Shown: in pieces, positions 19,762 to 57,873 of the stretch
Layout of the letters: each line of letters starts with the position of its first letter
Position numbering within the stretch: position 1 is the stretch's first letter
From: Moniliella sp. 'wahieum'
Lineage: Eukaryota > Basidiomycota > Moniliellomycetes > Moniliellales > Moniliellaceae
Direction of reading: 5' to 3'
NCBI GenBank assembly: GCA_003971905.1
Contig: RSEE01000025.1
Coordinates: forward strand, 620,001-684,000
Length of the DNA stretch: 64,000 nt
Notes under the pieces: model-generated
Told to the model about the DNA's origin: nothing
The model's database searches: none
The model's input: the letters and a program-made list of their open reading frames with translations, nothing else
Translations under genes and position numbers: made by a program

Positions 19762-19786
19762 GATGATCGATGATCGATGATCGATG
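19762..19786. repeat. (ATCGATG)n palindrome array
   Basis: Three tandem ATCGAT+G units. The same unit recurs at 20433-20449 and 61821-61845. Confidence 0.9.
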
Positions 19787-21707
19787 AACGTTTGTTGAGC
19801 ACTGAGCGTTCGGCCCCGCGCCCCGCACGGCGCCACTGTGCCGGGAGCAATGCAGGGCGGGGGCGCACCTGCCGGCCGAGACGGGCGGCGCGCATGCACA
19901 CCTGAGGCTTGGCTGGCGCGTGCCCGCTGCTCCCTCCGCACGGCGCCAGTGCAAGGTCGCGACCAAGCGGATTCTTTGTCGGGTCGCAGTGGTCAGCATG
20001 CACCACGGCCAGCTCCCCCAGTGGCAAGGCGGCTGGCGGGAGCGTACCGCCCTCGTAACCGCTGAGGCTCAGCGCTCCGGCAAGGCTGATGCCCTGATGC
20101 ACCCCTGACTAGTGACCGGTGGCCGTGACCCCCCCGTGCAGAGCGGGCAGTACGTTCTGAGGCCCTGCGGGGGAGTGAGTTCGGGATATGAATCTGAGCG
20201 CTCATGAGCAGCGCAAGCGAAGGCTGGTGTGGCCGTCGTGTGGGCGCGGGCCGGCGCTGGAGGCACGGGCCCTGTGGAAGGCCTTGGCAGGGGCTGTCGA
20301 CCCGTGAGCCGTGCATGACGTCCCCTAGGATCGACATCCGTGCATCCGCCTCTCCCCACGCGCGCGCTGGGCTGGCCACCGGGCACTGCGCCGCACTGGG
20401 CCACACGCGGCAGGTGGCTGGGATGGGATTGAATGATCGATGATCGATGGGTTAGGTTGGGTTGTGATCTAGGCTCTCTCTCTCTCGCTTCCCCAGGCCG
20501 CCGTGGGCCGACCTGGGCCGACCAGTCAACCGGTCAGTACGTTCAGTAGAGTATGAATACGAATCCTGAGTTCACCCGGGACGATGTTCAACCAACCAGG
20601 CCGCGCGGCAGCAGCAGCGCGCATGACCCGCTCCACTGCCGCTCCCCCCAGTCAAAACAAAACGTTCAGCGTTGTCAACGCGCCAGCGTCAACGTTCATA
20701 CGTTCATTCACGTCCACCCTTCCAGCTCCACCGCAGGCCTCGCCGGTCTTTCCGATCATTGATCTGACCGATCATTTCGATCATTCCAGCTCGCGGAACG
20801 AGTGGGTCGATCATCGATCAGTTCTCAAAGGAAGCCAGAGCGAAGACGCTGCGTCGTGGCTCCATCGACGTTGGATCCAGCTCCTACGTCAAGCTTCAAG
20901 CGTCAAGCGTCAAGCTTCAAGATTGCAGCAGCTATGTAGATTGTTTGCGCTTCAATTGAATATTGGCTTTCTGGGCGTGTGCATGGCTAGCATGAGTAGC
21001 ATCGCCTTGCACCCATTTTTCGGAGCCATTCTAATTCTACCCCTACCCTTGCCCTCTTCTTTTCGCTCCGCTCCAGACTCCTTGGCGCCTTGGCATCGAC
21101 TTTCGAGAGCGCGCCTGCCCAGCTTGCTCGGCTCGGAGCTCCGCCACATCCCCATATGGCTGTACACACCCTCTCCTTTGTGTATAAGAAACCGGTACGC
21201 ATAACCGGCATAACGCATCTGCATCGCCGGTACCCCCCTTGGAGCGTATAGACTTCACATGTCACATGACCGTCACACGTCACGGCAGGTGGCGCTGCCG
21301 CCTGCGAAATCCTGCGTCTCGTTTTCCCGGTTCCCCCCGCCTAGCGCTGCCAGGCCTGCCTGCTTGTTGGTTGGTACAGCAGCCACCAGCCACTAGCCAT
21401 GCCTCAGGGGCAGCGGCAGTGTGTGGTAGCCGGTATGCCGCCATGTGTGGCGGGTACCGTACCCAGCACCGGTTTCGGTCCTGTCCCATGTCCGGCTCCA
21501 CTGGCCGCGGCAGCAGCGGCGGTGGAAGCGGTGCGGCGCCGCGCGTGGCCCTGGACCTGAGGCTCAGGCCTGCGGGAGCGCCGGAGCGCCTGCCTGTACT
21601 GACTGGTACTGAGTACTGAGTTACTGACTGGGCGCTTGGCTTTTTTGGTAGGAGGATCTCACATGCTGACATGCGGATCTGCTGACATGCATGACAAACA
21701 ACAGCGA

Positions 21708-21733
21708 GCATGCATCATGCATCATGCATATGC
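21708..21733. repeat. (ATGCATC)n palindrome array
   Basis: ATGCAT plus C units, followed at 21980-22000 by a variant ATGCGTC array in which the palindrome has one base changed. Confidence 0.85.
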
Positions 21734-22463
21734 ACGTGCATGAGCCTGCTGCATGATGGGTGAGCCAGCGCTCAGCGCTCACCGGACACACACACCAGAG
21801 ATCTGCCGGACTGAGGACCTGAGGAACTGAGGAACTGAGTCCTGCGCTGTGGTTTCGCCTGGGTTGCGGGCGAGGCAAGGATCACTGACACCAGGGTCCC
21901 CAGTACCGGCCGCAGCTAGTCCCTAGTCTCCCCCCCCGCTGGAAATTCAACATTGCACCTTGCGCATCCCTGAGAAACATGCGTCATGCGTCATGCGTCA
22001 TGCACATCATGTCTTCCGACCAGCGGTCTCAGATCTTATATTTACCGGATTCAATATTCACCGCCCTATCTACATGTCCATGTCATCGCTGACATCTCGC
22101 TGTCATCCCCTCCACATTCCACCACCTCCACCACCCCGTCTATTCCCGCCCGTCCCACGCCCCCTTCGCTACCGCCCCCTTCGCGTGGCGCTCCCAATGC
22201 CAGATTGGTGTTAGATGTGCGATGGGAGGTTGAGATGCGAGATCTGAGATCTGAGATCTGGGAGATGTTGAACGTTGAACGGTTGATGCATGTTGGTGCA
22301 TGGTGATTGATACATGATACATGATGCATGATGCATGTTGGTACATGTGATCATCGACTCAGTCGATGAAGCTGAAGCGCAACCAGTAGGATCCGTTGAC
22401 AAAAAACGTCTCTCCACACGCACGCATCCCAAGTAAACCATAGCAAACAAGACCTTTTCCAAT

Positions 22464-22520
22464 TTCAAGCTTCAAGCTTCAAGCTTCAAGCTTCAAGCTT
22501 CAAGCTTCAAGCTTCAAGCT
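22464..22520. repeat. (AAGCTTC)8 palindrome array
   Basis: The longest heptameric array in the window: about eight perfect AAGCTT+C units. Confidence 0.95.
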
Positions 22521-22848
22521 CCAACCTTCCTGGTGCGAGCTTCACAATGTCACAGGGCGCACATTAAGTGCATGAGCGCATGAGCACCCAGACTGAGTGG
22601 TTGGCATTTGCGAGAATCCGACAGGGTGCATCATGCATCAAATTCCAAATTCCAAATCGAACCAACGCAGAAAAAAGGCCAGGAAAATGAGCAGAAAGAT
22701 GGGAAGGATACGCATGGGACATGGGACAGGAGAAGGGCTGCGAGAGATAGACATGGCCAGAGGGCTGAGGCTCAGCTGAGCCAGCCATTTTTCTGGCACG
22801 ACCGCCAACAAAATGCCATCCATCACAAAAAAAGTTTAAATACAACAA

Positions 22849-22874
22849 GTAACTAGTAACTAGTAACTAGTAAC
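22849..22874. repeat. (ACTAGTA)n palindrome array
   Basis: Three to four ACTAGT+A units; immediately downstream a GGAACAT heptamer doublet follows. Confidence 0.9.
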
Positions 22875-23046
22875 GTGGAACATGGAACATGGCACGCTGC
22901 GCTCAGCCGTTCAGCCGCTCCGCTGCTGAGCCTCAGCGCTGAGCTCAGGTGGACGGTGAGTAGGAAGAATGGAGATACTAGTCCTGCTGGATCATCAATC
23001 AGGCGCTCTGCTGTCTTCTCTCTTCTCTCTTCTCTCTTTTGAGATC

Positions 23047-23066
23047 TGACCGGTGACCGGTGACCG
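23047..23066. repeat. (ACCGGTG)n palindrome array
   Basis: ACCGGT+G units after a CTCTCTT tandem. A related ACCGGT+C doublet is at 46374-46391. Confidence 0.85.
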
Positions 23067-23970
23067 TGACCCGGCTCGGCCGGCGGACTTATCGCTGTCT
23101 TGGGTGGCAGCCGTTCGTTTGCATAAAGCGCTAAGTGCTAATGCCGAAAGAGGGGCAGAGATGCCGAGGTGGTATCTGGTCCCTGCTGGTCGGTCGGTGT
23201 GGCTGGCTGGCTGGCTGGATGTGGTCGGGTCTCTCAGGACGTTTTGCCCCAGAAACCTCCATTCAGTTACTCAGGTACTCAGTGTCTAGTGTACTCAGTG
23301 TCTAGTGTACTCAGCCCCAGAGAAATCCGAGGACAATATCTCGAGGAACACGCTGGTCGTCGGTGATATATAGGTCACTGGTCACCGGTCACAGACCTGT
23401 CACACGCAGCTGCTAGTTCCCTCCCCCAGGATCCTGGGTGACATCATCGAATTGCCAAGCCACACCCCCGCAATCCCCGCCCCCCCCTCGTTTTGCGTGC
23501 CAGCCTGTCCCATGTCAGATGTCACAGACGCGAGTCTGAGGCTAGAAACTTAGCTTCAGATCGCAGAAGCTTCAGAGGCTTTGGAGGCTTCAAGCTCCAG
23601 GGCCTCAGGGCGTTTGGGTTCGGGCTTAGGCCCATAGGGATTACTAGTTACTCAGGCGGCGTCCGAGGCCGCGGATATATTTTTCCCCCTGTGTCCTGCT
23701 ATCGTTTGCCAGCTCGTGGATATGAATACCGCGGTGCTGTTCCTCGTTCCTCTATTGCTAGGTACGAAGTACTAGGTCGTGCGGGTAAAGCCGGAACCAG
23801 CGTGAACCGAGTACCCGGGTACTACCACGGTAACGCAGTAAAGCCGATAGTCGATAATCGAAAACCCGATAACAGCGCCCGTGGGTATGCGTGACGCGTG
23901 ACGCGCGCTACCTGCATGTGTGAACATGTTCGTGATGCGCGTGATGCATAGTGTGGCTCTGAGGGATCTG

Positions 23971-24004
23971 ATGCATGATGCATGATGCATGATGCACGGT
24001 GCAT
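23971..24004. repeat. (ATGCATG)n palindrome array
   Basis: Four ATGCAT+G units decaying into a GTGCATG variant at the right end. Confidence 0.9.
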
Positions 24005-24349
24005 GGCGGCCGACTGCATCGACCATCCCTTGTCAACAAACGCATGTCTTGGTAGGCAGTCACATGTCACATGTCACAAATAACCACAGCTCTTAGAGCT
24101 TAGATTGTTGCTACAAGGAGGGATAGTGGAGTGGATGGAAGAGTAGGTGGACGCGTGCCGAGTAGGTAGGTAGACGAGTGATGGACCATGGTCGATGGAC
24201 GACCATACGTGCGCGCTAGATGGACGACAGATGCTCACCGGCCTCTCAGTATACTGGTGATGGTCACTATGGTCACTCATTAGGCCTTACCGGTACCGGT
24301 TACCCCCTTCTCACCATTTCGTTGTTACTGCTCTGGCATATTTTACTGG

Positions 24350-24380
24350 TTACTAGTTACGCGTTACGCGTTACGCGTCA
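24350..24380. repeat. ACTAGTT/ACGCGTT mixed palindrome array
   Basis: An ACTAGT+T unit changes in phase into ACGCGT+T units, showing one array switching palindrome while keeping the 7-bp period. Confidence 0.85.
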
Positions 24381-24513
24381 CTCGCGCACGACCAGCAGTT
24401 ACTAGTTACGAGTTACTCGTTAACGCTGCTAGTTGTTAGATTCCTTTTCGCCACCCCATCTCGCCGCCCGCGATCCATCATATGCATCATCGATGAGAGT
24501 GTTGGTGGTCGAC

Positions 24514-24550
24514 GTTACGCGTTACGCGTTACGCGTTACTCGTTACGCTT
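24514..24550. repeat. (ACGCGTT)n palindrome array
   Basis: About four ACGCGT+T units, with an ACTCGTT variant at the right end. Confidence 0.9.
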
Positions 24551-26490
24551 ACGTCTGTCCAGTGTGCATTGTATGTCCCTACCCTCATTAACAACGTCAT
24601 TAACGTTTAACGTTTTACGTTTTACGCGCGTCGCAATCACGTTTAGCGTTGAAGTTCAACGTTCAACATCATCGACATCATCGATCCTCCGTCCACACTG
24701 CATCTGCATCTGCATCTGCATCTGCATCTGCATCATTAACGACTGTCGTGTCCCCTACATTGTCGCACGGTCGTGCGCGCGCGCGTCCTCGCATATATAT
24801 CGCCACGCGCCACTGCAGATCGTTGCCTACCGTTGCAGGCTATGCACCGCCCTCAGTCTGCCAAGAACCTGCAAGAGCCTGCAATAACTCCCCCCAGGCC
24901 CCAGGCCCCGTTTCTCTTCCGTCCACAGCAACAACAGGCACCAACACACACCAACACACACAACACGCAAAGTGGACTGATTGGTTCAGCCGCGGTTCCT
25001 TTAGCGTTAATTACGTTAATTCTCGATTTTCATCGACCATCACCAATTTTGAATACGGAACTATATTGACGAGTGCGAGAGCTGCCGTGAGTGCATGAGC
25101 CCAGCGCGGGGGGGCGCGGTACTACGTCGGGGCCGGCCGGGTCGGGATCGGGATCGTCGGGATCGGAGTGGAGGGTCTTGTTAGTACTTAATACTTGGTT
25201 GTCTTTTCGTTCCTTGGTCGGAGTGGTCGGAGCGCCGCGCATCCAACTAGTATGCATCTTCAAAGTGTCCTACTGGGAATCTCGCTTCCCCCCCCCCTCT
25301 CTGCTGCACCGTCGCCACCGTCGCCACCCACACGAGCCGAGACAGGAAACCACAAGATATGAACGTACGTTGACCGTTGAACGTTGAACGTACGACTCCT
25401 GAGTAACTGAGTCCGAATCGCGCCGCGCATGAGGAGGAGCGCGTGGGTTAAGTATGGGTGTGTTTGTGTGCCAACTAGCGGCACACAACAGCTGCACATC
25501 GACCCTGGGGGGCACTGAGTACTGACTGAGTCCACCGTGAGCCGGGTCAGATCGATCGTACGGCTGGAGTTGAACGTTGGGACGTTGAGATCGAGTTGAG
25601 AGTTGAGTACTTGAGTAACTGCGATGTGACAGGTACGAGCGAGGCTCGAGGCTGGAAATCCATGCACCATGCCGGAAAGAGGATTATCGATCATGGCATA
25701 TGGTGCAGCATGACGAAGTGTTTGCGGGGTACATCAGGGTTCAACTCATCAGGGTACATCCCCAGCCTCAGGCCACCTCGGAGTACATCTTTTGGTAAGC
25801 ATTCTTTTGGCGCGTTGTCAGATGTGTACATGGTATATGCCCTGTGATATATGTTCCCGTATGTCCCCAAGTTGTACACCCGAAATGGGAAGCTGTGCCT
25901 GCGCGCCTTCGATCATTGCGATCATATTTCTCTGATCGAATCGACGACTTTCGTCTGCAGGTACTTTAGTTGTGTTGCGGCCGGGACGTCGACTAGGTAC
26001 TAGGTTCTACTTCGTTCCTACCCTTTTCGCGTTCTGCGTTCCTCGACACATGCCAATGTAATGCCACGCGGGCCAGGCCGAAGCCGGGCGGCCATTGTTG
26101 CTCGCTGGCTTGCACGCCGAGCTCCAAGCAGCAAAGTGGACACCACCCCGACCTCCAGTCTCCCCGTTTCTCCTCGGCCAAAACAAGAACGTGTTGGCGC
26201 ACGAACGATACTTGGCAGAGGCAGTGCCGTAACGGTCTGTGTGGATGCATGTATCGCAGGCAACCATGGTGGCTCTCTTGCGCTTCCCCGTTATTCAGGG
26301 GGGGGGAGGGGGGAGGGAGGAAGGTATATAACAGTGTGCATGATTTCGGACGCTACCGACGTTTGACTCCCATCGACTCTCATTATATCTCAAGAAAGGC
26401 AGAGAGAAAGATCCAGCTGCGCGTGTCTCTGCGCTCTCCCCCGAGAGCAGCTGGTAGAGGAACTGGAAGGCTTTTTTCCCATGGCTGATT

Positions 26491-26852
26491 CCATGTCATT
26501 GGCAGAGCTTAAGGCTGGGACAGGGGGAACGCTACGTCTAATCCTAACCGTTCATCTTGCGGGGTTACTTAGGGCACCACCAGGGTCAAGGAACCAGGGG
26601 GATCGCCAGGATATCAGGACCCTCCGGCTCGCGCCATCCGGTCCCGTACCCTAGGTAGCGCGTGTGAACACGGATAAACGTGGTTGACATCCGAGCGAGG
26701 AACCATGTCCACTGAGACTTAGTAGCCAACTCCTTCCAATGCGCAAACAACTTGCCCGCCGTCTTGGTGCCGTAGTATTCTCGCGTCGTCAAACCAGGGG
26801 GAAAAACGTCTCTTGAGTGCGTCCCTGGTACTTGGCGTTCTTTCCTATATAT
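26491..26852 (-). repeat. dispersed repeat with coding relic, copy A
   Basis: This is about 360 bp, matching 54458-54812 in opposite orientation with small indels. On the minus strand it reads 'YQGRTQETFFP', then in a neighbouring frame 'LTTREYYGTKTAGKLFAHWK', 'MSTTFIRVHTRYLGYGTGWR' and 'EPEGPDILAIPLVP', then a stop. Copy B conserves 'STTFLRVHTRFLGYGTGWR'. The protein family is not recognised. The shared peptide and shared 3' flank suggest fragments of a duplicated gene or transposon. Confidence 0.75.
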
Positions 26853-27365
26853 TCTGCTGCATCTTCTGCATCGTCAGGGACACGAACCCTGAGGACCTAA
26901 GGCCTCACCTTGAGCGTTGAGCCTGGACGTTGTTGAATCTGTACCGCCTCTCACACCATTCACGCTTCCCGCCTCGTCGCCTGGACCATCCGCCGCTCAG
27001 CGCTCAGCGCCCAGCACCCATAGTGGATCGGCATTGGATGTCGGGGGGAAGAAAGGCACACGACCAACCAGGATCAGCCGGGGCAGTGTGGTCCAGCATC
27101 CCGTCGTCCTTCTTTCGTGAAGAGGCGAGGAAAGACGGGGTGAGGGCGGGCAGCAGGGATTGCCACGTACGTTTGGCCTTTGCCCAGAACAGCGATGCGG
27201 GAGGGCAGGCTGGAGGAGAGGGCAAGCGGGGTGGATACTGGATGTGGATGTGGACAGGAGATTGGTGTGCATGTGACTGGAGCAGGGCCGAGTGTGGGGC
27301 AAACCGCCTGGGCATGGATTGGTTGGTCAGAAAAATTGGTGCCCTGTGCTGACAAACCCGCTGAC

Positions 27366-27405
27366 AGCCCAGGGCAGAGCAGGGCAGAGCAGGGCAGAGC
27401 AGGGC
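27366..27405 (+). repeat. GGGCAGAGCA minisatellite
   Basis: About four tandem copies of a 10-bp unit. Confidence 0.9.
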
Positions 27406-27846
27406 AGCCTACGGAGGGGGGCACTGGGGGGGCAGCGCAGCACCTGGCCGGGCGAGGGAAGCACAGTGGCGCTGTGCCTGGCTGCACGCGTGGGTGGGGG
27501 CTGGGCCGGGCCGGGCTCTGCCGAGGCTGCGGGGCAGAGGCGACGGGGCAGTGTGGAGGCGGGAATTAGTAATGGGGATGGCACGGGGGCAGCGGGGCGC
27601 GGGTGCTGCACCACGCTGGTGTGGGTGCATGCCGTGGCCCTTGCAGCTGCAGGCTGCATGCGCCAGGGCCAGGGCGGAGGAGCGGACGGGCGCGAGGTCT
27701 GTGGCCAGAAGCCAGGCCCAGTCTGGCCAAGCAATGCGGCAGATTAACACTGGTCGAGACCCAGCAGCCGCTCGAACCAGCTCGCCAGCCCCACCTCCCC
27801 GCGCCCGACCACCTTCTCCGGCCCCGTCTCCGCTGCGTCCGCCGCC

Positions 27847-29887
27847 ATGTTTGCTCTTGGCCGCTCCGCCCTGCGCTCCGCCCCTCCCGTCCTCCGCGCC
27901 ACGCGCGCCTTCTCCGCATGCGCACCTGCCCGCCGCGTCGTCGCGTCCCAGCCGCTGCGCGCCAAGCAGGCCTCTGCCCCGCTCGATGCGCCCCAGGGCT
28001 ATCAAGTCATTGAGCACGAGTGCGTTGTCCTCCCTTGTCCCCTCCGCCACCCTTGCCTCCCTGCCGCCGTTCCTAACCCCTTTCTGCAGATACGACGCCG
28101 TCGTGGTTGGTGCCGGTGGCGCTGGTCTGCGTGCCACCATGGGTCTCGCCGAGGCTGGTCTCAAGACGGCGTGCATCACCAAACTCTTCCCCACCCGCTC
28201 CCACACTGTCGCTGCCCAGGGCGGCATCAACGCCGCCCTCGGCAACATGACCGAGGACGACTGGCGCTGGCACATGTACGACACGGTCAAGGGTTCTGAC
28301 TGGCTGGGCGACCAGGATGCGATCCACTACATGGCCCGTGAGGCCCCCCGCGCAGTGATCGAACTGGAGCACTATGGTCTTCCCTTTTCGCGCACCTCGG
28401 AGGGCAAGATTTACCAGCGCGCCTTTGGTGGTCAGTCGCTCCAATTCGGCAAGGGCGGGCAGGCGTACCGTACGTGCGCTGCCGCCGACCGCACGGGCCA
28501 CGCTATGCTTCACACGCTCTATGGCGAGTCGCTCAAGCACAAGTCCAACTACTTTATTGAGTTCTTTGCTCTGGACCTGATCATGGAGGATGGCGAGTGT
28601 GTGGGTGTGATGGCCATTAACCAGGAGGACGGGACGATCCACCGCTTCCGTGCACACAACACGGTCCTTGCCACCGGTGGCTACGGTCGTGCCTTCTTCT
28701 CCTGCACCTCGGCCCACACGTGCACTGGCGATGGGATGGCCATGGTGTCGCGTGCAGGTCTGCCGCTGCAAGATTTGGAGTTTGTCCAGTTCCACCCGAC
28801 TGGCATTTACGGTGCTGGGTGCCTGATCACCGAGGGTTCGCGTGGCGAGGGTGGATACCTGCTCAACTCAGAGGGAGAGCGGTTCATGGAACGGTACGCT
28901 CCGACGGCCAAGGACTTGGCTTCTCGTGATGTCGTCTCGCGTGCCGAGACGATGGAGATTCGTGCGGGCCGTGGTGTAGGACCAGAGAAGGACCACTGTT
29001 ACCTTCAACTGTCGCATTTGCCCCCCAAACTCTTGCACGAGCGTCTTCCTGGTATCTCGGAGACGGCTGCCATCTTTGCCGGTGTGGATGTGACCAAGGA
29101 ACCGATCCCGGTCCTGCCTACCGTGCACTACAACATGGGTGGCATCCCGACCAACTACCAAGGTCAGGTGCTGACCCACGAGAATGGGCAGGACAAGGTG
29201 GTCAAGGGGCTGTACGCAGCTGGTGAAACGGCGTGTGTGTCGGTCCACGGCGCGAACCGACTGGGAGCCAACTCGTTGCTGGACATTGTTGTGTTTGGTC
29301 GTGCGTGTGCGAACCACATCAAGGAGAACTCGACGCCCGGAGCACCGCACAAGCCTCTGCAGGGCGACGCGGGCAAGAAGGCGATTGTCGACCTGGACAT
29401 TGCGCGCAACTCGAACGGTCCGCAGCACACGTCGGACATTCGGTTGCACATGCAAAAGGTTATGCAGACGGATGCCGCCGTGTTCCGGATGCAAGAGTCG
29501 TTGGACGAGGGCAAGAAGATTGACCATGTGGCCGACATTCTGCCCCAGGTGGGCATCAAGGACCGCTCTTTGATCTGGAACACGGATTTGTACGAGACGT
29601 TGGAGCTGCGCAACCTGTTGACGTGCGCGACACAGACGATGCACGCTGCTGCAGCGCGGAAAGAGTCGCGCGGTGCGCATGCACGTGAAGATTTCCCCGA
29701 CCGAGACGATGTCAACTGGATGAAGCACACGCTTTCCTGGGACACGGCCGTGGACTTTGTCCAGCCTGGCGAGCAAAAGGTCAAACTCGACTACCGCCCC
29801 GTCATCTCCACCACGCTGGACGAGAACGAGTGCCCGAGTGTGGCCCCCTTTGCCGCAAATACTAAGCGAAAATCTATGGATCTCTAA
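27847..29887 (+). CDS. SDH1: succinate dehydrogenase flavoprotein subunit, mitochondrial
   Basis: The catalytic subunit of complex II (succinate to fumarate, electrons to ubiquinone) on the matrix side of the inner membrane, 656 aa. Exon 1 (27847-28019) encodes a typical Arg/Ala/Ser-rich presequence starting [21 protein letters not shown] 70-nt intron (28020-28089, GTGCGT) ends before '[15 protein letters not shown]', the FAD-binding Rossmann motif. '[18 protein letters not shown]' contains the His that binds FAD covalently. The substrate region includes '[20 protein letters not shown]', '[20 protein letters not shown]', '[15 protein letters not shown]' and '[20 protein letters not shown]'. 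The C-terminal domain ends '[20 protein letters not shown]'. Exon 2 is open over 1.8 kb with strong codon bias. The extreme C-terminus ([12 protein letters not shown]) is not the usual ending and may reflect an indel or an unspliced short intron near 29855. Confidence 0.96.
28020..28089 (+). other. intron of SDH1
   Basis: 70 nt, GTGCGT donor, CCTAAC branch motif near 28075 and CTGCAG acceptor. It splits the Glu codon of H-E-Y-D-A-V. Confidence 0.85.
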
Positions 29888-30600
29888 TCCGGTCGACCAT
29901 TGTCACTTCCATGTTCCCCTCCCCTCCCCCCCCCCCTTGGGCACATCTTGTGGATCAGGTTCCGGATCATGAATTGGTTCCCCACATGGCCGTGGCTGCG
30001 AAGTGAACTTCAATCCATCCCACAGCATCTCCCGTTGAAGGTGGATCCCGTAGGAACAGATCAAGTAAAGGTGTACCTGCCCCCTTAGTCGAAAGAAACG
30101 TGAAAGACAACTAGGATGGTGAAGGAGCAATCCTCAAGTGGCGCGGGAGCCTAACGTCAGTTGGTTGGTTTGGCTACTTGAAGCTTGAAGCTTTTGACGG
30201 TGGGCCAAACGCAGAGAGCCTTTGTGAATTCTTGACTGTAGCAAGCACCCCCTTGTTCATACAGATGGAGTTGTTACGACCCCCCCCCGGGGGTCGATAC
30301 TTCTCTCTGAGTCCCCATGCATCGTGAAGTCGGGCAAGCAGCGGGAACGCAACCAGATGCTGGTTTTTTGGGAGCAGGGGAAACCTGCCTCTTGTGACCT
30401 GCCTCTTGTGACCTGCCCCTTGTGACCTGCGAGAGATACGTCCTCTTCTCGCACACTCTTTACGTGAAGATGAGGCGTCAGCGAGTAGGACTGAGGCCAG
30501 CCAATAAAGTGATGGGCGTGTGGGAAACGTGGTGGGAAAGGGAGGGCAGTCCAAGAAGGGGGATATGAATGATGACAACTGCTGCTGTCGACTCCCATCA
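29888..30600. other. intergenic between SDH1 and tRNA-Ala
   Basis: No gene is seen. It contains an AAGCTTG doublet (30177-30195) and a 16-bp tandem repeat (30384-30434). Confidence 0.5.
30384..30434 (-). repeat. 16-bp minisatellite
   Basis: Three copies of a unit reading CCTCTTGTGACCTG(CC) on the + strand, the last copy with a C/T change. Confidence 0.85.
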
Positions 30601-30672
30601 GGGCGGATAGCTCAGGGGTAGAGCGCTTGCTTAGCATGCATGAGGTCCGGGGTTCAATTCCCTGTTCGTCCA
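30601..30672 (+). tRNA. tRNA-Ala (anticodon AGC)
   Basis: The full cloverleaf can be drawn. Acceptor strands are GGGCGGA / TTCGTCC with discriminator A, and the D arm is GCTCAGGGGTAGAGC. The anticodon loop TTAGCAT carries AGC, and the T arm is CGGGG-TTCAATT-CCCTG. There is no intron. The anticodon stem CTTGC/GCATG has one T-T mismatch at the second pair, and the acceptor stem has G-T pairs. The A and B boxes are intact, so I expect a functional gene. Confidence 0.9.
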
Positions 30673-31076
30673 TTCCTTTGCATCAGTTGGTAATACACAA
30701 CGGTGCATGATGGATTTTTGGGGGGTTACCTTTTTTCGACTAGGCCTCGCGTCCGTTCCCTCGTTCCTTGGACCGGCGGTCTGTTCCTGCAGCTTCGTCT
30801 CAATTGAAGTAAGAGGGGGCCCCTTCTCGCTTCCTCTGCTTCCAGGGGGTGCAAAAACGAAAACGATATGTGCTCTGAAGAATTCCCGTCAGCTTCTCTC
30901 TCGGGAACCACTCTTCATTGTGACCACCCCCCCCCCCCCCATGACGCATGTGATGACGGGCTTCATTTCGTCCACAGCCACATACTATAGTAATCGGTGT
31001 CGCGCTGTCTGCCTTGACTACCGCGGATCGCAGCACTTTGTGATGGTGGAAAGCAGGCTCACACATCTCTAAAGGG

Positions 31077-47220: not shown

Positions 47221-47240
47221 CGTAACGCGTAACGCGTTAG
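47221..47240. repeat. (ACGCGTA)n palindrome array
   Basis: Two ACGCGT+A units; the same unit occurs at 46803-46818. Confidence 0.85.
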
Positions 47241-48168
47241 GTAAGTAGTAAAGCTAGACAGAAGGGGGCAGATCAGATCTCAGATATCAAAATTGTGGGT
47301 AGGTGGTACACCCCCCTGGCTAGGTGATGCAATGGTACCATTGGGCGTCGATATTCGATCGTGGCCGTGAAAGTGTATTGCCATCGGTCTCGCGTTCAAC
47401 GTTCACGCATTGACGTAAACGGCGGGGGACATTTTCACAGGGAAATCAGTCACCTCGTGATGTTTGGCACGTCCCGCCGGAACCGCCACCTTCGGCGCCA
47501 CTTTGGGTTCATTTACACTGAGACAGGGTTGCGGTATTCCCTAGATTCACTCGAAGCTTGACCGCCGAGCGTGAAAAAAGCGGCCGTGAAAATAGCTCCG
47601 CACGGGGGCAGTGTGCAAGCAGCTCCTCGTTTGAAAAAGCGCAGACGGAAAATGCACGCGTGGATGATCATCACCCATGCCACCGATGAGATCCAGGAGC
47701 CCCCTGCGACGTCCAAAGGCCGAGGTCCACCTCGCCTCAGCGCCTCAGCAGCTCAGCCCAGAGGCCTGACCAGATTTTTCACTCTCGATTGTCGTGCCCT
47801 CAGGCTCAGGCTCAGCGGCTCAGCCTGAGCCCTTGCCTCAGGGTTGTCAGGGCCTCGGCGCCTCAGCCGAACCGTCGTCGTCCGTCAGGGCATCAGCCAC
47901 CAGCAGAACCCGCTAAGCCCATGCAGGCAGAGGCATGCTCTGGCCGCCGCACGCAGCTTGCAGTGGGCAGGACAGGCCATGGCGGCTCGGAGTCAGATCT
48001 CAGACAACAGAGATGCCTGTGGTCTGCGTATGCCTGCCGCCTGTTCTGGTCTCTGCGCCCTGGCCACTAAGCTTGCTCGTGGGTTGGAGCAAGTGAACTT
48101 GCTGACCCTCTCTCAACTCTCGACTTCCATCCGTCTGTCCTTGCCCCTGGCTTCTACCTTCTCACGCC

Positions 48169-49982
48169 ATGGGCTCGGCCAGCACATCTAGCAGTGAGCG
48201 CAGCACCGACCCTATTTTTCTGCGCGCACCAGTCGCCGCACCAAGCGCCATATCCACACCCACAACCAGCATCGCCAGCAGTGGACTCTCCAAAGCACTG
48301 TCCGGTGTCTCCACCGGCCTTCCAGCCCCTTCTCCTCCATCACCCCTACTCCTCGCTCTCCACCCACATGGCGCACGCCTCAAGCGCTACTCCCCCCACC
48401 CAAGGAGGAGACCATCCGCCATTAGGCCATCCTCCCGTTGAACCTTTTCCCAGTGGCCATGGACCCACAGCTCTCGATATTTCGAACTCGGCCCGCTCGG
48501 CGGCCCAGCTGCTGCAAGCTCGATGGGAGCTAAAGAATCAGCATCAGCAGCGGCAGGAGCAGCAGCTGAGGAAAGCCCCTCATAAATCACGTACCCATGC
48601 CGCCGACCCCACCCGCTTAGCCGAAACCGATGCCGCTCTTCCACAACGGGTAAACACCTAAAGCGCAATCGTCGTCATCAATCCCAAGAGCTGGAAAATT
48701 TCCCAAGCAATTGGTCTTCCCGTTCAAGCGATCGGAACCGTCTAGCGTCACGTTCGCGTAGGTCCAGCCGTGCTTCGGTGGAAGGATCTCTTCGTTCTGA
48801 TCGTTCAACCCCCTCGGCTAGGAATAGCTTTTATTCGGCTCATTCCATCTTCAACCCAACAGGGGAACAGGAATTAACGGCATTGGTGTAATTCCTGAGG
48901 TGTCTCAGTCGCACACTTCGTCGCCCTCTTCCACGGCTTCACCTCTCCCTGGCAGCGATGGCCGTAAAAGGACACAGAGCACCACCTCACGCTCAATTCG
49001 TTCGGTTCGAACCGACACTGTCTCGTACTTGTGGGATGCATCAGCAGAGGATGCGAAACGTACGCGCCGCTCATCTGATGTATCATCATTGTTCCCGGAC
49101 ATTCCCGGTGCCTGGACCGAACACCGCATTGAACCAACACCCCTTGCAAAGGGGAAAACTTATTCTACGTCGTCTACGCTTGGATCGTATCCTATCTCCA
49201 ACAGGAAGATCATCCACGCCGCCCTCAGAGCTCTCGCAGCTCTTTCTACCAAACCGAACTACTCTCATCGTCGCCAAAGGATAAAACAGGTCTGTCCGAC
49301 CTAAGCAACCTACGTGCCTTGGACATGGGGCATCGGCAACTTTCCCATGCATCCTCGTTAGCGCGTACTTTGACCCGTCCTCTTTCAGCGCCACTTAAGC
49401 CGGTTCTCCAATTCTGGTTAGCAGCCTGCCTAAGCACAATGGCTGTGCTGTCACTCAGTGTTCTCATGGCTTGCTCTTATCTCTTGACTTTTTACGACGA
49501 TGCGGCCCACAGATCCCGCTCCCTCACCTCGGCCGCAGCGAAAGCTAGGGGCAAAGCCCCCACCGTCGGTAGCATCCTCTTCCCCTTCGTCTGGCTCCTC
49601 TCTGCACCAATACGAGTGCCGTTGCGCCTCTTCTCTCGATCGAAGCCCACTCGTTCTACTTCCTCTCCTCCTGATCTGGACGATGTTGGTGGTCCCGAGG
49701 AGAATACCCCGTCGGGTGCCCCGGGCCCACGACCTCCCATTGGCCCGCTCTGGCTAGCCTCGCATTTGCCCTTACCGTTACATTCGGGCAGGGATGTTGC
49801 AGCTGTTTGTCTCTTACCGCCGCCGCATGTTCCACCAGTATTTTGACGCGGACGTTGACCACAGTCCGATTCGGACGGGCAGACTGGTCCCCTCCCCGCC
49901 AAGTTCACGGGAATCCCAGGGGAGCTCTGCTGCGCCAGTCACTTCTCCTCCATGCCGCGTTACAGTCACAGGCAGCAACTAA
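48169..49982 (+). CDS. unknown Ser-rich membrane protein (frames broken)
   Basis: The family is not recognised. An ATG in good context (CTCACGCCATGG) starts 'MGSASTSSSERSTDPIFLRA' (48169-48385). Coding character continues through different frames: 'LDISNSARSAAQLLQARWEL' with a Gln-rich helix (48470-48560), an Arg/Ser-rich segment 'RLASRSRRSSRASVEGSLR' (48740-48800), 'RSIRSVRTDTVSYLWDAS' (48990-49050), and finally two hydrophobic segments, 'PVLQFWLAACLSTMAVLSLS' running into 'VLMACSYLLTF' (49400-49490) and 'GSILFPFVWLLSAPIRVPL' (49567-49625). A third hydrophobic stretch 'LASLAFALTVTF' lies near 49760 in another frame, after which the frame runs to a stop at 49982. At least five frame switches are needed, so exact exons are unknown. 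It is probably an integral ER or plasma-membrane protein with a long cytosolic N-terminus. Confidence 0.5.
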
Positions 49983-50579
49983 TTCCTGATATCCTGATCT
50001 TGATCTGGATCATAATCCCTGATGACCTCTCTCTCTCGTTTATTTCCTTTTCTGTTAGCGTCTTTCTTGCCTGCCCCGCATGCACGTTGCCACTGTTTTT
50101 CAGACACGGATGCAGCCATTGGCCTACACGCTCCTTACTAATTGTGCCGCTGCCCGTGTCGCGTGTGTAATTTATGAATGAAGAAGAGATGGCACTGTAG
50201 CTGGCACCCTTAGGATACGTATCGGTTGCGTATGGCGTAGAGTAACCCCAGTAACTACAGAGTACGGGCAGTGCCACGGTGCTTTTGCTTGCACCTGCTC
50301 TGAAAATGGACATGGCCATCCAAGGGCGGCGGCGTGTCAGAGCAGTAGTGCTTTTGCAACATTCAGAAGTGGAGACGCTCAATTTCCGTGTTGCGTGGCA
50401 AGCCCTTGCGCCGGGGCTAGTTGAATCGACCGAACGTCAGGCTGGCCAGCAGCCGCAACTGCTAACCCACCACTGTCCACCCAACCACCATTGCCTGCAA
50501 GCGCCTTACCCGTCCCCGCACCCTGGAACCACCTCCTCCCTCGCGCTGCGCCGTCCGCACGACTGAACACGAGCCCACC
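49983..50579. other. intergenic, p24 gene upstream region
   Basis: No gene is seen. The last 100 nt are C-rich leader. Confidence 0.5.
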
Positions 50580-51499
50580 ATGTCGTCCTCTGCCCGGTCC
50601 CAACTGTGGCTCCGCTCCACCTCCTTGCCGTCGCTCTGCTGGCCTTCACGCTTGTCCACAGCGTGCGCACATGATCGAGATGGCACCATATGGGAAGGAC
50701 TGCTTCTTCGAGGATCTGCACATCGGGGACCAGGTATGCCATCCACCCTTTCCCGTTTCCCCCACCCCTCTTCTGGCAACGCCGTCTGAGTCCGACCTGT
50801 GACTGCTGCCCCTGCCCTGTCCTAGCCCCCTTTGACTTCTAGTGGTGTTACGCAGATGACGCGTCCTACCAAGTGGGTGGAAGCTCGCAGCTCGACATTG
50901 ACACTATTCTCACCGACCCCTCTGGGAACGCTTTGTACGAACGGTCGCGCAAGGATACGGGTTCCTATTCGTTTGTCGCCTCCGCCGATGGGCGGTTCGA
51001 ATACTGCTTCTCCAACGAGTACAGTAGTGCGGGGGATAAGAACTGTGAGGGGGTGCTACGCTGAGGGAGGACGCTGGTATGGGTATGGGCGGAGCGACGA
51101 CTCAATTTTTCGATACAGCTTCAAGCCATGGCATTATCTATGTTGAGGAGGAAGGCGACATGTCACCTGTCGAGCGCGAGGTGCGCGACTTGGCCGCAGC
51201 AGTGCAGGCCGTCAAGGATGAGCAAGCCTACCTCGTTGTGCGAGAGCGTTTGCATCGCAACAGTATGTCCTCCTGGAATGGGAAGCAAGCTGAATACTAA
51301 CCCTTCTATGTACTTAGCTGCCGAAAGCACCAACGCACGGGTGCGTACCTGGTCGGTCCAAGCGCTCATGTTGCTGCTGTGTGTGGCGTGCAGATCTTCT
51401 TGTTAAGAGGTGGAGTTTTTTTCTCTTTGGGCAATGGCGAGTGTAGACTGACCATCTTCCCCTGTCTCCAGGCACTTTGAGGTGCGACGTATTGTTTGA
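50580..51499 (+). CDS. p24 family cargo receptor (emp24/gp25L)
   Basis: p24 proteins are type I membrane proteins of COPI/COPII vesicles. The signal peptide region contains 'LHLLAVALLAFTLVHSVRA'. The GOLD domain has 'KDCFFEDLHIGDQ', then after a 122-nt intron (50734-50855) 'SYQVGGSSQLDIDTILTDPS', 'GNALYERSRKDTGSYSFVA' and 'GRFEYCFSNEYSS', with the two Cys of the conserved disulphide. A second intron lies about 51036-51114. The next exon gives 'HGIIYVEEEGDMSPVEREVR' and the heptad region 'DLAAAVQAVKDEQAYLVVRE'. A 55-nt intron (51263-51317) is followed by 'AESTNARVRTWSVQALML', the membrane span, and after a last intron (about 51398-51474) 'HFEVRRIV'. That tail carries a Phe and basic residues, as expected for coat binding. 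At least four small indels occur (near 50625, 50668, 50862 and 51385). Confidence 0.85.
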
Positions 51500-52829
51500 T
51501 CCCTCTTCTCGTTTGCATCCTCTTTCCCTGGCCATGGACGTGTGCTGTCGTGGCACATGTTGTGGCATGTCCCCCCATCCGTACATTATACCTTTCGCTC
51601 GTGAGGGATGTCCCTCCTACGCCTCATTTCATTGTATTCATGCGTTGGTAGGGCGCCCACCAGTGTCTAATAACACCCGCCAACCTGGATGGAAATACGG
51701 TTGTTGTGACCTGGGACGCGTCGAGACACTTTCATGCCAAGGTTGTTGGTCCCCATTGCCTCGCTCGGTGGACAATTTGTCAATGTCGAGGACAACATTT
51801 ATGAGGATCTGTGCTAGGCCTACCAGCAATGATAGGAGCGCTTCAGCGAACACGTTTAGAGTGGGGACCATCCACGACAGTGCATCACCCCAGCGAGCCC
51901 AGTTGCATTATATATGCTTATCTACTTCCCCTGCCCTGCCCTGCCAGGCCGGCCTACATGATCACCAGCTATAGGGCAGGCAAGATTGTTATTCAGCAAG
52001 CTCGTCCTCTGGATGGTTAACAAGCGACATCAACTTCGCTAGTCGGGAGATCAGCTCCCGGGCATCCGGGTGCATCACATTTACCCAAGCGATGTAACAG
52101 GCGCGCGCCGGGTATGAAGATGGCAACGGTGGGAAGTCGTAGCCCAGACTATGTATGCCGAAAGCCCACTATCCCATGTCATCCCTTGGTGGCGAATGGG
52201 ACTTTTTGGCAGCTTTTTGCATTGGGTTCTCTATGGTAGCAACAAACTGTTGGCTGAGGCGGGTAACAGAGTTTTTCTCAGCACCACCCATCTTGTCGAA
52301 GCAATGTCCCTCTGCTACAAACTCACCATACCTTCCGAGTCGTCTTGTCAACAGAGGGATGGGAAACAAGGCATCTCATCCCTAATTGCATACTCTGGCT
52401 TTAGAGAATCCATCTGTCCCCGGCACCCTTGGCACGTATGTTCTCGTCCTGCCCCGCAAGCGTTGATGAACTACATGGGCTGCTTGGGGACAATTCTTGC
52501 GTGCACTATTTAATACCTATGGCGCATGACTCGGAAGAGGGTTGCTAGATGGGGAATAGCATTTTGGGGGTCGTAGACGCGCCTACTAAGGTGCGCATGG
52601 AAGAGCATAGCGCCATAGATGCCCAAGGCAACCGGCAACCAATCGCGTGAGACCCATACGTTAGGGGAGGAGGAAAAGGGAAGGGGATAAAGAGAGACGG
52701 ATACTCCCTGTCCCCTCACTGAACCTCACCCCGCTCCCACGCGCAGCGGGGCCCCAATGATCGTTCCCATATCGTCAAGGCTCACTCAGCCTGACGCCAG
52801 GGCCGGTACAGATATCCAACGAGGAGAGC
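51500..52829. other. 1.3 kb without a recognised gene
   Basis: Short open frames occur (for example 52151-52513 on +) but none has recognisable content or introns. The right end is the 3' flank of uL15. Confidence 0.45.
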
Positions 52830-53096: not shown

Positions 53097-53133
<37 letters not shown>

Positions 53134-53338: not shown

Positions 53339-53875
53339 GTCAACAGTCTTGGAGGTTGGTGCTGGGCGAAGAGACGGCGCGACAAGCAAATGCAAACAGA
53401 AGGCAGCAGCAGCCTGGCCCCTACAGAAAGAGTAGGGTTAGCTTCCGCGTACGTCATCAGTGTAATATTTCGCCGCAGCAGGTTTTCACCACGGTACTAG
53501 GGTTGCAAACGCCGTCTGGCGCACGTCACGTGTCACGTGTCACCCTTGGTCTGACGTCGTGGTCAAGCTGGTCAAGGGTCCGATGCCGTCTGCCAGCGAC
53601 AACTGGAACGCGGGATTAGGTCGTGCACCAATTGGTCTTTGCGTGGCCTCCTCAACCATTGTGATTATCCACCCGGCATCACGTGAAGTCTGACGTCCCC
53701 GCTATGGACGTTCGCACCAGCGTGCCCCCGTTCATACTAGTGGTTGCCAGGTAAAGCTGCCGGTTGTCATTCATTCCAACTCACTTGTACCTTTCCCCTA
53801 CCCCCCTTCGCTATCTCATTCGTCGTGTTCACTAGCTTCAGTCTCCACCGTACGGATCCCGCGGGCTGGGGATAA
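53339..53875. other. RPL28 upstream region
   Basis: It contains a CACGTGT array at 53524-53543. No other gene is seen. Confidence 0.5.
53524..53543. repeat. (CACGTGT)n palindrome array
   Basis: CACGTG plus T units about 190 bp upstream of RPL28. CACGTG is also an E-box-like core, so a regulatory role is conceivable. Confidence 0.8.
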
Positions 53876-54457: not shown

Positions 54458-54812
54458 GCGAGAAGAACGCCAAGCCAAGTACCAGGGACGCACTCAAGAG
54501 AGTTTTTCCCCTGGTTTTGACGACGCGGGATACTACGGCACCAAGACGGCGAGCAAGTTGTTTGCGCATTGGAAGAGGTGGCTATAAGTCTCAGTGGAAA
54601 TGGTTCCTCGGGATGTCAACCACGTTCCTCCGTGTCCATACGCGCTTCCTAGGGTACGGGACCGGATGGCGTGAGCGGAGGGTCCTGATATCCTGGCGAT
54701 CCCCTGGTTCCTTGACCCTGGTGCGCCCCTAAGTAACCCCCGCAAGATGAACGGTTAGGTTTAGACGTAGCGTTCCCCCTGTCCCAGCCTTCTTAAGTCT
54801 GCCAATGAAATG
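54458..54812 (+). repeat. dispersed repeat with coding relic, copy B
   Basis: Inverted partner of 26491-26852. It reads 'YKSQWKWFLGMSTTFLRVHT' and 'RFLGYGTGWRE' on the + strand, then keeps the same 3' flank. Several indels relative to copy A break the frame. Confidence 0.75.
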
Positions 54813-57800
54813 GACGTTGTCTAGAGATGCATTTTTCCTCTGGGCAGTGCATGATTTGTCCGCCAAAGGGATTCCTATACCAGTGGTCACTAGGTCACAG
54901 TCACTGTCTGCCAGCTATTACTAAGAACTCTGCATAAAAGTAGAGAGCAATGCGCAAAAGGGCGATAGGGCGTGACTGGCGTCTAAGAAAGCCCAGACTC
55001 CGTGTTACGGGGCACTCAGGTTATTTCCGGACGAGCGTAAGCCAGCTCATCTCATAGACATCTCATCCAAACACGCGTCAATCGCGTTACACTAGCGAGA
55101 GAGAGCAACGGATACCTTATCCATGCTGGAAATATCTCATCCGCTGCCCGCCCTGTGGCCGCATGTGCTTATCGGTACGATGCGTTGTGCTCATCGCACC
55201 CAGTCACACAACCCTTTAAGCTTACCTGTGCTGCGCCCAATTGCGCAGCGTCAACGTTGAGAGCACGGGATCAGTCTTTACCCTCTGGAAAGTTCCCCGC
55301 ATTCTGTTTATATACCTCTGTGTCATGAGGCACTTGAGGCCTGAGGCCTGGTTCTTCTGTATATAGTAAGCAGCCCTGCGTAAGGCTTGCTATAGCTATG
55401 GTCCTTGTCGACCACCATGTTACACCTGATACTGACCTGTTGAATTACTGTCCCTGTTCTCTACCCTTTCCATTCCTCTCTCGCCCATTGCACCTTCTCC
55501 ACCGTATAAATTTACAAACTGACATGTCGGTTACACTCTAAGCCGCGGTACTCGCAACCTAGCGCTTGCTCTTCGTTAGGAACTGTCTGATTCACCTATT
55601 ACACATCGCGTGTCGAGTGTGGTAACGCCCCAGGGTAACCCATAATGCATAACCCACGTTACGCGTTACCACAGAGTTCCTGTGAACCCCCGCAACGGGT
55701 CTGGCCGGACTTTACGTACGCTCCTTCCTCGGAGGTTCTGAGCTGCGGTCGTTGCACGCAGGCGCCGCCCCCCAAACTAGAGGATCTCCCCCTCGCCTCT
55801 ACACCAACCCGCTCGGTTCGACCAGGATCTGAGGCAGGACATACCGGATGTGGTTCCGATTAGCCGTTCAAAAGTTATAATACCCCCCTAAACACCTTAA
55901 CCACAACAAAAATGCTTCGTCGTTATCGTCTTGTGATATGTAGAGAGTGAGGACCATATGTATAAGAGCTGAGTACTCAGACTGAGTGTGGAGAGAAGCA
56001 CTGCAAACGAGCAACTATAAACAAGACATTATATTCTCACAAGTTACTAGTTACCGGCTTCCAACGTGGTCCAACTGAAAAATTCTAAGGCTAAAAAGGA
56101 GCTTCCAGGAAACCAGTTAAGCAGGTTAATATTTAATGCGCAACCCCCGGAGTCGAGATGCCAGCTTGGAGGCGCGGCGCTGCCGAAAGCTTGACGGAAC
56201 GAGAAAAAGAAACGCCCCCCTGGGTGGTTCATTTCTCAACGTACCCAATAAAACCTCCGTTGCCGACAACATTGAACGTTGAACGTTGAACAGGCGCCAT
56301 AGCACCGATGCATATGTGCGTACTCTTTCTGCCTTTCGCTCTCACCGTTTACATGGTGACGAAAGGGGGGGAATTCAAAGAACGAACGATGTGGATGGCA
56401 TCTGTTAAACGTAGGACTCAACAACGTTTTGACATGAAGATAGATTGATAGTAGATCGATAAGATGCGGTGCGTGCTGATGCAGCGCTGATGCACTCTGA
56501 TCAGAAGCACAGGACGATGGGCGAGATGGTCGATGGGAGGCTATCCGGCTATGGGCGATGGCAGGCGATAGACGGTAGGCGCTAGGCTGCCAGGTGCGGT
56601 GAAGTCGAGTGATGAGCGTTTGACGTTTGATCCAGCCAAATTCAAATGGCTGTCATCGCCATCGCTGTCATCAGCGCGACAGCCTGCGACAGCCAAGCAC
56701 CTCTCGCCGGATGCTTGGCGCCACACGGCGTGGCAAGCCGAAGAGGGAGGCACTAGGCTAGTGTGCTGTCGGCCCTAGCTCGGTACAGCGAACGGCGATA
56801 GGCGCGAGGCACCCTGAAGGCACTACAGGGCACTTTCCGGCACTGCTCCAATCGCCGCCGCACTTTCCTGCTCCACTCCGCTTCACCGTATGATTCACCT
56901 GACCGCCTCGCACGTACCCCTGAGCGCCTCCGCCTCCTCCCCGTCTCATCGGGGTTTCACCGCCCAAGAGTGGAGAGCGAGCAGCAGACGGCCTCTTATG
57001 ACCGACTAGTAGGACTCCACTACAGGCGGGCTTTCGGCCTGACCTATTAACCGCGGCAAAATATCTGCCAACAGCTGTACGTCATACCACCCCGCCGCCT
57101 TACACCCAGCTGTGTGTATCTCAGCCAGCCGATCCCTATAAAGGTAACCACAATCATCGTCAGACGCATGTGGCCATGATGCACTTGATGTGTCCTGCTT
57201 CGTGCTCTTCTCTTGGGCGGCAGGCCGATCACAGTGACTTGTCAAGCGTCAGCGCGTAAGCTTCAAGCTTCAAGCTTCAAGGCACTACTTAGGACCTCAT
57301 CGAACTCATGATTATCCACAATCTCCACACTTCTCGCGCCGTAATCCATAAGCTTAGAGCTGCCGGCCATCGGCCAGTAATGCGTAACGGCAACTGGCTA
57401 AGCTTTTGTTTGAACTTGGGTGCGGATGCAGACGCAGACAGAAGGTGAAAACGGTGAAAACAGATGGATGAAGAGAAGAAAGGGCGGGACCCATTGGACC
57501 CGGAACGGGATCCGGGGGATAACCCGGAGCCGGTGCCTGTCCGCACAACTTGATGGGCTGTGACATGTGATGCATGTGAACGCATGAGCGATGTGAGATC
57601 TGAGATGAGCGCATAATAAGCATCGGACCAAGCACCCTGCCCACCTCAGAAAAGCACCGGGCGGGCGTGGTGGGGAGCTCCGCCTCATCACCGCACCACA
57701 CAGTATAATATGGTACGTGATCACATTATGTGTCAACGTACGTTCAACATGATGTGGACTGTACGTTCCACACGTTACATGCACATGATGCAATGATGTA

Positions 57801-57831
57801 ATGATGGACTCGGAGACCCCATTGGGGGCCA

Positions 57832-57873
57832 TTCAAGCTTCAAGCTTCAAGCTTCAAGCTTCAACGTTCAACG
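57832..57873. repeat. AAGCTTC array running into AACGTTC
   Basis: Four AAGCTT+C units change in phase into AACGTT+C units, another case of the palindrome switching inside one array. Confidence 0.9.

Follow-up and report, generated by a model that had tools for sequence, protein, structure and literature searches.

In CNG trinucleotide repeats, the unit consists of a palindrome plus one base, the folded array contains one mismatch per unit, and expansion is driven by hairpin stability. V(D)J coding joints and the excision footprints of hAT and Transib elements comprise a short duplication together with two palindromic (P) nucleotides, and theta-type templated insertion is likewise a known process. 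Inverted copies are also described in FEN1-deficient (rad27-delta) Saccharomyces cerevisiae, in events of fold-back, self-copying and return assigned to a "palindrome extension plus DNA amplification" class (PMC5677150). In this work, we characterized dispersed arrays of 7-bp units in a 64-kb stretch of the basidiomycete Moniliella sp. 'wahieum' (assembly GCA_003971905.1, contig RSEE01000025.1, positions 620,001 to 684,000), hereafter the window, to which all coordinates refer unless another contig or locus is named. The unit of these arrays is the trinucleotide T-N-A plus a 4-bp palindrome, and its elementary form is a 12-mer, TNAab-b'a'-TNAab, in which b'a' is the reverse complement of ab, and N, a and b are any base. 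With somewhat more confidence than doubt, we favour the view that the arrays are products of a recurrent, sequence-specific 7-bp insertion, TNAab -> TNAab-b'a'-TNAab, occurring by nascent-strand fold-back at TNA.

Exact motifs were counted in the whole assembly (69.5 Mb in 223 contigs, of which the window is 64 kb), and fine statistics were drawn from 264 kb, namely the window and a genome sample of 200 kb (20 segments of 10 kb, one at a fixed position on each of contigs C1-C20), plus selected loci; 200 kb of Escherichia coli served as the sole outside comparison genome. Defining an array as a perfect period-7 run with a self-overlap of at least 8 bp, we found 60 arrays in the window and none in each of three order-1 Markov shuffles, a density above that of the sample (60 per 64 kb and 52 per 200 kb, respectively). 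A 6-bp palindrome was carried by 39 of the 60 window arrays, 13.1 being the expectation when letters are permuted within each unit, and by 19 of the 52 sample arrays (7.3 expected). Identical palindromic 6-mers recurred at distance 7 at 5.2 (window) and 3.5 (sample) times the rate of other 6-mers, at distance 14 at 4.3 and 3.7 times, and at distance 21 at 3.3 and 1.6 times; at most other distances the ratio lay between 0 and 2, the exceptions, all with small counts, being 17, 22 and 23 in the window and 23 in the sample. No palindrome excess was found at periods 3-6 and 8-14 in the window or 2-6 and 8-16 in the sample, and palindromic 6-mers at large were not enriched (observed/expected of 1.11 and 0.97, respectively). 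Matching arrays, often with a different number of units, stand at corresponding places on contig C139, and therefore the arrays are not an artefact of a single contig.

A preliminary description of the window had listed heptamer arrays and proposed that their unit is always a perfect 6-bp palindrome plus one base. All but one of the listed places were recovered within a few bases (at 46305 there is an interrupted copy, GTTCAACGGTTCAACGTTCC, and no perfect array), the in-phase changes of palindrome that it reported at 24350 and 57860 are indeed present, and the counts given above show an excess of palindromes, in window and sample alike, that is confined to period 7 among the periods compared. 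"Always" was too strong a word, as 21 of the 60 window arrays and 33 of the 52 sample arrays lack a 6-bp palindrome, and the rule itself was too broad, as the palindrome is of the A....T type in 57 of the 58 palindromic arrays (39 from the window and 19 from the sample). Given this restriction and the absence of a general enrichment of palindromic 6-mers, a preference for any 6-bp palindrome was ruled out.

Read in the corresponding phase, the array unit is T-N-A plus a 4-bp palindrome. Four exact motifs of this form were counted genome-wide against the same letters written backwards, which have equal composition and are equally palindromic, and gave 1038 vs 0, 191 vs 2, 760 vs 16 and 1021 vs 5, counts that include overlapping places within longer arrays. 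Outside direct tandem copies, the four bases between two T[CG]A trinucleotides were palindromic in 123 of 339 cases, against a background of 5.8%, while the control cores A[CG]T, CNG and GNC gave 7/143, 81/1332 and 86/1626. When the gap between T[CG]A pairs was 2 or 6, palindromic spacers were near the random 1/4 and 1/64 (42/160 and 3/318). Read on one strand or the other, T-N-A also corresponds to the stop codons TAA and TGA, which a 7-bp step places in all three frames; we take this match to be a coincidence, because the palindromes are not explained by stop codons.

Maximal period-7 runs of the TNA-palindrome type peak at 12 bp (n = 73), compared with 7, 7 and 4 length-12 runs for A-N-T, C-N-G and G-N-C, and with a total of 9 in five Markov-3 simulations. 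A single strand-symmetric phase, TNAab b'a' TNAab, is common to 58 of the 73. This dispersed 12-mer, in which a 5-bp direct repeat flanks a 2-bp inverted copy, is the elementary unit and, being shorter than two heptamers, is not a 7-bp duplication. Loops of 2-5 and stems of 1-4 were then scanned for spacers of this kind, with only the four strongest loop-end classes looked at per cell. For loop 3, stem 2 and ends T..A, the spacer was reverse-complementary in 58 of 77 exact 5-2-5 repeats (4.8 expected), which is the largest excess and the sole large one, the remaining cells being near expectation with two exceptions that are discussed below; the same 5-2-5 test in E. coli gave 2/14. Among the 58 12-mers, the base at N is distributed as in TNA at large (A 5, C 24, G 20 and T 9, with 7.8, 21.2, 21.2 and 7.8 expected), ab also follows background, and the G+C of the stem has no effect; 15 of the 16 possible ab dinucleotides occur among these 58, and all 16 among the 93 12-mers of the sampled and array-targeted loci.

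Whichever two bases adjoin the spacer, it is their reverse complement; this supports a process of strand pairing, and in this respect the structure-driven origin suggested in the preliminary description stands, although its hairpin-templated synthesis at breaks is one possible version among others. Its two further suggestions, an enzyme acting on 6-bp palindromes and 7-bp-phased binding sites, are not supported: the empty allele described below is a plain 5-mer, TNAab, which need not be palindromic, and palindromic 6-mers are not enriched. Sites phased at 7 bp and under selection for protein binding or regulation would agree with the recurrence of T[CG]A in phase at 7-bp steps, but with N, a and b unbiased the protein would need to read self-complementarity rather than sequence, and alleles differ freely in unit number and palindrome, all of which makes this explanation extremely improbable. 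The 58 12-mers of the 264 kb (20 in the window and 38 in the 200-kb sample) extrapolate to roughly 13,000 genome-wide. None of the 20 in the window lies in coding sequence (7,989 bp, roughly drawn; 2.5 expected), and 12-mers and arrays are probably neutral intergenic scars.

Further evidence comes from other copies of the same region within the assembly. The unique stretch at 27400-30700, which is the region of a succinate dehydrogenase flavoprotein gene, has a 94% copy over its full length at C139:16213-19549, and two 88% copies over about 2 kb at C71:132412-134493 and C114:113554-115639. The assembly thus seems to hold a second haplotype plus a more distant pair, four copies in all, a pattern like that of a polyploid or hybrid genome in which the haplotypes have been separated. 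Two stretches of C139 align to window positions 16755-27380 and 44576-52518 with 89-91% identity, and the presence and absence of the insert can be seen directly in three clean pairs of 5-mer and 12-mer alleles. At 22049 the window has ATTCAATATTCA and the other haplotype a lone ATTCA; at 23641 the window has TTACTAGTTACT and the other haplotype a lone TTACT; and at 24324 the window itself carries the empty allele TTACT, while the other haplotype (locus L051, from 7396) has the 12-mer TTACTAGTTACT. No base is lost in any of the three pairs, and the empty alleles (ATTCA, TTACT and TTACT) contain no inverted repeat beyond T..A. At a fourth site, 47409, which lies in a length difference of 22 bp, TCACGCGTCACG stands opposite one TCACG.

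Longer arrays also differ between haplotypes by whole units: at 22464, the window counts 8.1 units of AAGCTTC and C139 only 2.1, and several other arrays differ by one unit. Among 15 insertions or deletions of seven nucleotides, 7 overlapped the TNA-palindrome motif and none overlapped the control cores, under a strict overlap rule by which units missed through gap placement were scored as misses. In copies of repeat elements, whose alignments were judged by eye, no seven-base difference of the 12-mer kind was found. The 12-mers of the window and the empty site are listed here.

8469 to 8480, plus strand: 12-mer of the form TNAab-b'a'-TNAab
11441 to 11452, plus strand: 12-mer
14319 to 14330, plus strand: 12-mer
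20910 to 20921, plus strand: 12-mer
22049 to 22060, minus strand: 12-mer; lone ATTCA in the other haplotype
23641 to 23652, plus strand: 12-mer; lone TTACT in the other haplotype
24324 to 24330, plus strand: empty site with lone TTACT; the other haplotype has the 12-mer TTACTAGTTACT
25514 to 25525, minus strand: 12-mer, identical in both haplotypes
35209 to 35220, minus strand: 12-mer
40201 to 40212, minus strand: 12-mer
42279 to 42290, plus strand: 12-mer
44569 to 44580, minus strand: 12-mer
45581 to 45592, minus strand: 12-mer
47026 to 47037, plus strand: 12-mer, identical in both haplotypes
47993 to 48004, plus strand: 12-mer, identical in both haplotypes
55641 to 55652, minus strand: 12-mer
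56126 to 56137, plus strand: 12-mer
57559 to 57570, minus strand: 12-mer
58606 to 58617, minus strand: 12-mer
61492 to 61503, plus strand: 12-mer
61717 to 61728, minus strand: 12-mer

The change from 5-mer to 12-mer would be an insertion rather than the reverse deletion, and could proceed by fold-back in four steps. On a strand ending in b'a'TNA, the last 5 nt of the nascent 3' end would detach from the template and fold back, so that the terminal A faces the T two bases upstream; the polymerase would then copy a' and b', adding ab and leaving a 7-nt mini-hairpin, b'a'-TNA-ab, flush with the duplex; synthesis would restart on the vacated 5-nt template, where b'a'TNA would be laid down again to give b'a'TNA-ab-b'a'TNA; and the hairpin would evade repair and become fixed as 7 bp. 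Such a route would give a 3-base loop, 2 copied bases and 5 re-copied ones, which matches the observed form. The same product would be left by a dedicated terminal-transferase-like or end-joining activity at double-strand breaks with frayed TNA ends, that is, by theta-type templated insertion, whose outcome is also a templated inverted plus direct micro-copy for any N, a and b; we consider this unlikely, as break repair normally deletes bases and varies in length, whereas the three clean allele pairs lose no base.

Under insertion by fold-back, arrays would form when the event is repeated in either orientation, with ordinary slippage assisting. At the edge of an array, an event at the same TNA with neighbours cd unlike ab would add a new unit TNA-cdd'c', that is, a different palindrome in the same 7-bp phase and with the same N. 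One repeated insertion could in this way account for the period, the palindrome, the TNA and the in-phase switching with constant N. Adjacent in-phase units were compared across the window, the sample and the array-targeted loci. When the first unit was palindromic and the second differed from it at four positions, the second was also palindromic in 10 of 13 cases; with two differences this was so in 17 of 34, the calculated chance being 1 in 9. Of the 27 pairs of different in-phase palindromes, 21 kept the same N. In the window, different A....T palindromes stand at distances 7, 14, 21 and 28 in 17, 10, 7 and 7 cases (about 2.3 expected, all pairs).

Ordinary slippage of hairpin-forming heptamers would have chance TNA-palindromes expand, with the hairpin of a looped-out unit escaping mismatch repair. 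This agrees with the whole-unit differences between alleles and with higher copy numbers being commoner than rare independent events would give, but slippage cannot make the 12-mer, which is phase-locked and under two units long, nor different palindromes in phase, and it predicts equal or better success for ANT, CNG and GNC, none of which was seen. As a complete account it is very improbable and, as the birth step, it is refuted by the form of the 12-mer, the in-phase palindromes and the core controls; we retain it as a growth step, and it probably carries part of array growth. The arrays and switches of the window include the following.

5509 to 5541: array AGATCT+G, 4.7 units
19761 to 19787: array ATCGAT+G, 3.9 units, then in-phase TGA-ACGT
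21709 to 21729: array ATGCAT+C, 3.0 units
22239 to 22260: array AGATCT+G, 3.1 units; one unit less in the other haplotype
22464 to 22520: array AAGCTT+C, 8.1 units; six units less in the other haplotype
22848 to 22874: array ACTAGT+A, 3.9 units
23040 to 23066: in-phase TGA-GATC, then an ACCGGT+G array
23969 to 23996: array ATGCAT+G, 4.0 units
24349 to 24378: in-phase switch from TTA-CTAG to TTA-CGCG, with an array at 24356 to 24378
24513 to 24539: array ACGCGT+T, 3.9 units; one unit less in the other haplotype
46369 to 46392: in-phase switch from TCA-ACGT to TCA-CCGG; the other haplotype has instead TCA-ACGT-TCA-AC
53525 to 53543: perfect array at the place described as CACGTG+T
57832 to 57873: array AAGCTT+C, 4.7 units, with an in-phase switch to TCA-ACGT
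61821 to 61846: array ATCGAT+G, 3.7 units, then in-phase TGA-GGCC

The form of the 12-mer, a 5-bp direct repeat with two palindromic nucleotides, is also exactly that of an excision footprint. If a DNA element that duplicates a 5-bp target, TNAab, were excised through a hairpin opened 2 nt off the tip, the P nucleotides b'a' would stay between the two copies, with slippage lengthening some of the products; the lone 5-mer and the 12-mer would then be the empty site and the footprint, and repeat elements, as well as a long terminal repeat with a 5-bp duplication, do occur in the genome. Nevertheless, TNA-flanked inverted ends 20-4000 bp apart were not in excess, and 10-mer ends with the same N numbered 0, in a search that covered only elements with TNA-flanked inverted ends in 264 kb of the genome. 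Footprint lengths usually vary, while the 2 nt and the 5 bp are nearly fixed here; T-N-A lies on one side of the 5 bp only, whereas a dimeric transposase would probably show a symmetric target preference; thousands of footprints would stand without visible donors; and the duplication of the long terminal repeat is AGAGC, not TNANN. We therefore hold excision footprints to be decidedly improbable. A variant in which the element duplicates only the 3-bp TNA and leaves 2+2 bp from its termini was ruled out by the same lack of an inverted-end excess in the 264 kb and by the flanks of TNA-pal4-TNA, in which exactly two bases match on one side and none on the other in 35+23 cases, and none on either side in 12.

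Several repeats and repeated genes were recorded alongside these features. The repeat at 1402-1848 has inverted ends, and its right half (about 233 bp) has at least 39 other copies with 92-98% identity among the best 40 candidates scored. A repeat of about 350 bp occurs at 26490-26836 and 54474-54814, the two copies being 91% identical and the first absent from the other haplotype. An apparent solo long terminal repeat at L013:8975-9828 starts with TGTCACGGG, ends with CCCGTGACA and has the flanking 5-bp duplication AGAGC. Genes for 5.8S rRNA are found at 14 places in the assembly, at least 7 of the 14 within 3 kb of a contig end, and include divergent copies (148.6 to 120.3 bits). The ITS/LSU stretch resembles that of Dikarya, perhaps of Basidiomycota; two Pfam searches for flagellar proteins gave no hit, and neither did their controls. 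A tRNA-Ala (AGC) gene lies at 30601-30672, and other contigs carry many nearly identical copies, about 75-80 bp long.

A number of observations weigh against recurrent insertion by fold-back. The calculated energy of the 7-nt hairpin is equal for TNA, ANT, CNG and GNC (mean +1.99, not stable alone), and arrays of six units fold at -11.85 (TNA), -11.88 (ANT), -16.08 (CNG) and -16.38 (GNC); as the three alternative cores fold equally well or better and yet show no excess, fold-back leaves the T..A restriction unaccounted for, and a protein preference must be assumed. Only 7 of the 15 seven-nucleotide insertions or deletions fit the motif, and 10 of the 18 phase-locked rows of at least 12 bp are identical in both alleles in a table that has one row per allele and so counts shared sites twice. 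The intergenic DNA of the homeologous contig C71 fails to align as an outgroup; the allele pairs are therefore unpolarised, and a precise 7-bp deletion could explain any single pair. The two exceptional cells of the scan are loop 2, stem 1, A..T (116/227, 56.8 expected), whose words probably sit inside arrays such as ATGCATG, and loop 3, stem 3, A..G (6/19, 0.3 expected); in addition, T-N-G gave 6/12 in the window and 1/21 in the sample in the 5-2-5 test. In the sample, different A....T palindromes at distances 7, 14, 21 and 28 numbered 7, 2, 0 and 3 (about 2.3 expected), an excess at 7 only. Finally, the 264 kb contain 118 runs of 12-14 bp and 18 of 19-21 bp, from which it follows that, per TNA site, an existing run is far more likely to grow than a new one is to arise, and that slippage must contribute.

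Some protein would account for the T-N-A preference. It is possible, though we regard it as rather doubtful, that in this lineage an activity for DNA synthesis or end processing, either dedicated or strongly biased, recognises T-N-A where a strand is frayed or broken, folds that strand, writes the 2-nt mirror and re-copies 5 nt, and that the resulting 7-bp insertion, site-specific but otherwise general as to sequence, is among the main forces on its intergenic DNA.

We rate the 12-mer as a sharply defined mutational product, a variant of fold-back template-switch mutagenesis. One explicit mutation rule replaces a puzzling repeat class, and lends itself to genome-wide counts, to comparison of haplotypes and to tests in vitro; it also allows the origin of a short tandem repeat to be told apart from subsequent expansion by slippage, and provides a search signature for other genomes, and hence for the responsible enzyme. 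If true, fold-back synthesis, mainly known as an error that is rare or confined to mutants, is able to operate with a single fixed geometry and to scar a genome at very many places. No description of the insertion rule was seen among the open-licence papers listed, subscription papers being mostly outside that search, and the rule may nevertheless have been published.

As regards known systems, the arrays share with CNG repeats a self-complementary unit with one unpaired base (39/60 window and 19/52 sample arrays) and allele length changes by whole units. Unlike CNG expansion, which concerns one sequence and is driven by stability, any a, b and N are found here with a fixed T and A, and enrichment does not track hairpin stability, as ANT is equally stable, CNG and GNC are more stable, and none of them is enriched. 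Unlike V(D)J joints and hAT or Transib footprints, no element was found by the inverted-end search of 264 kb, there is little length variation, and T-N-A lies on one side only. The heptameric repeats of Xanthomonas and Nostoc have the unit length of 7 in common with these arrays, but they are G-rich and quadruplex-forming, and no palindrome rule was noticed in the accessible part of that report (PMC4692102). The small inverted triplications linked to FEN1 are alike in their direct-inverted-direct order, but they average 148/160/148 bp, their spacer being 30 bp and their junctions 6 bp long, in place of 5/2/5 (PMC13334657). In yeast quasi-palindrome mutagenesis, a template switch likewise extends inverted-arm identity; it perfects existing arms, while here the arm is newly made (PMC3820800). 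The closest likeness is to the rad27-delta fold-back events, in which an inverted copy lies beside a direct duplication and the nascent strand returns further back on the template (PMC5677150); correspondingly, an inverted copy adjoining its source and followed by a direct repeat was found in 58/77 cases (4.8 expected). Those events are larger and vary in length, one example being a 66-bp insertion, and their turn lies where a palindrome or imperfect inverted repeat is already present (PMC5677150). No pre-existing inverted repeat of several base pairs is present at the three clean sites of the Moniliella genome, and the self-copied and duplicated lengths are nearly fixed, loop 3 with stem 2 being the sole large excess. 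Here a single A would face a single T with one base between them, and 2 nt would be copied and 5 copied again, at a great many sites in an unmutated genome.

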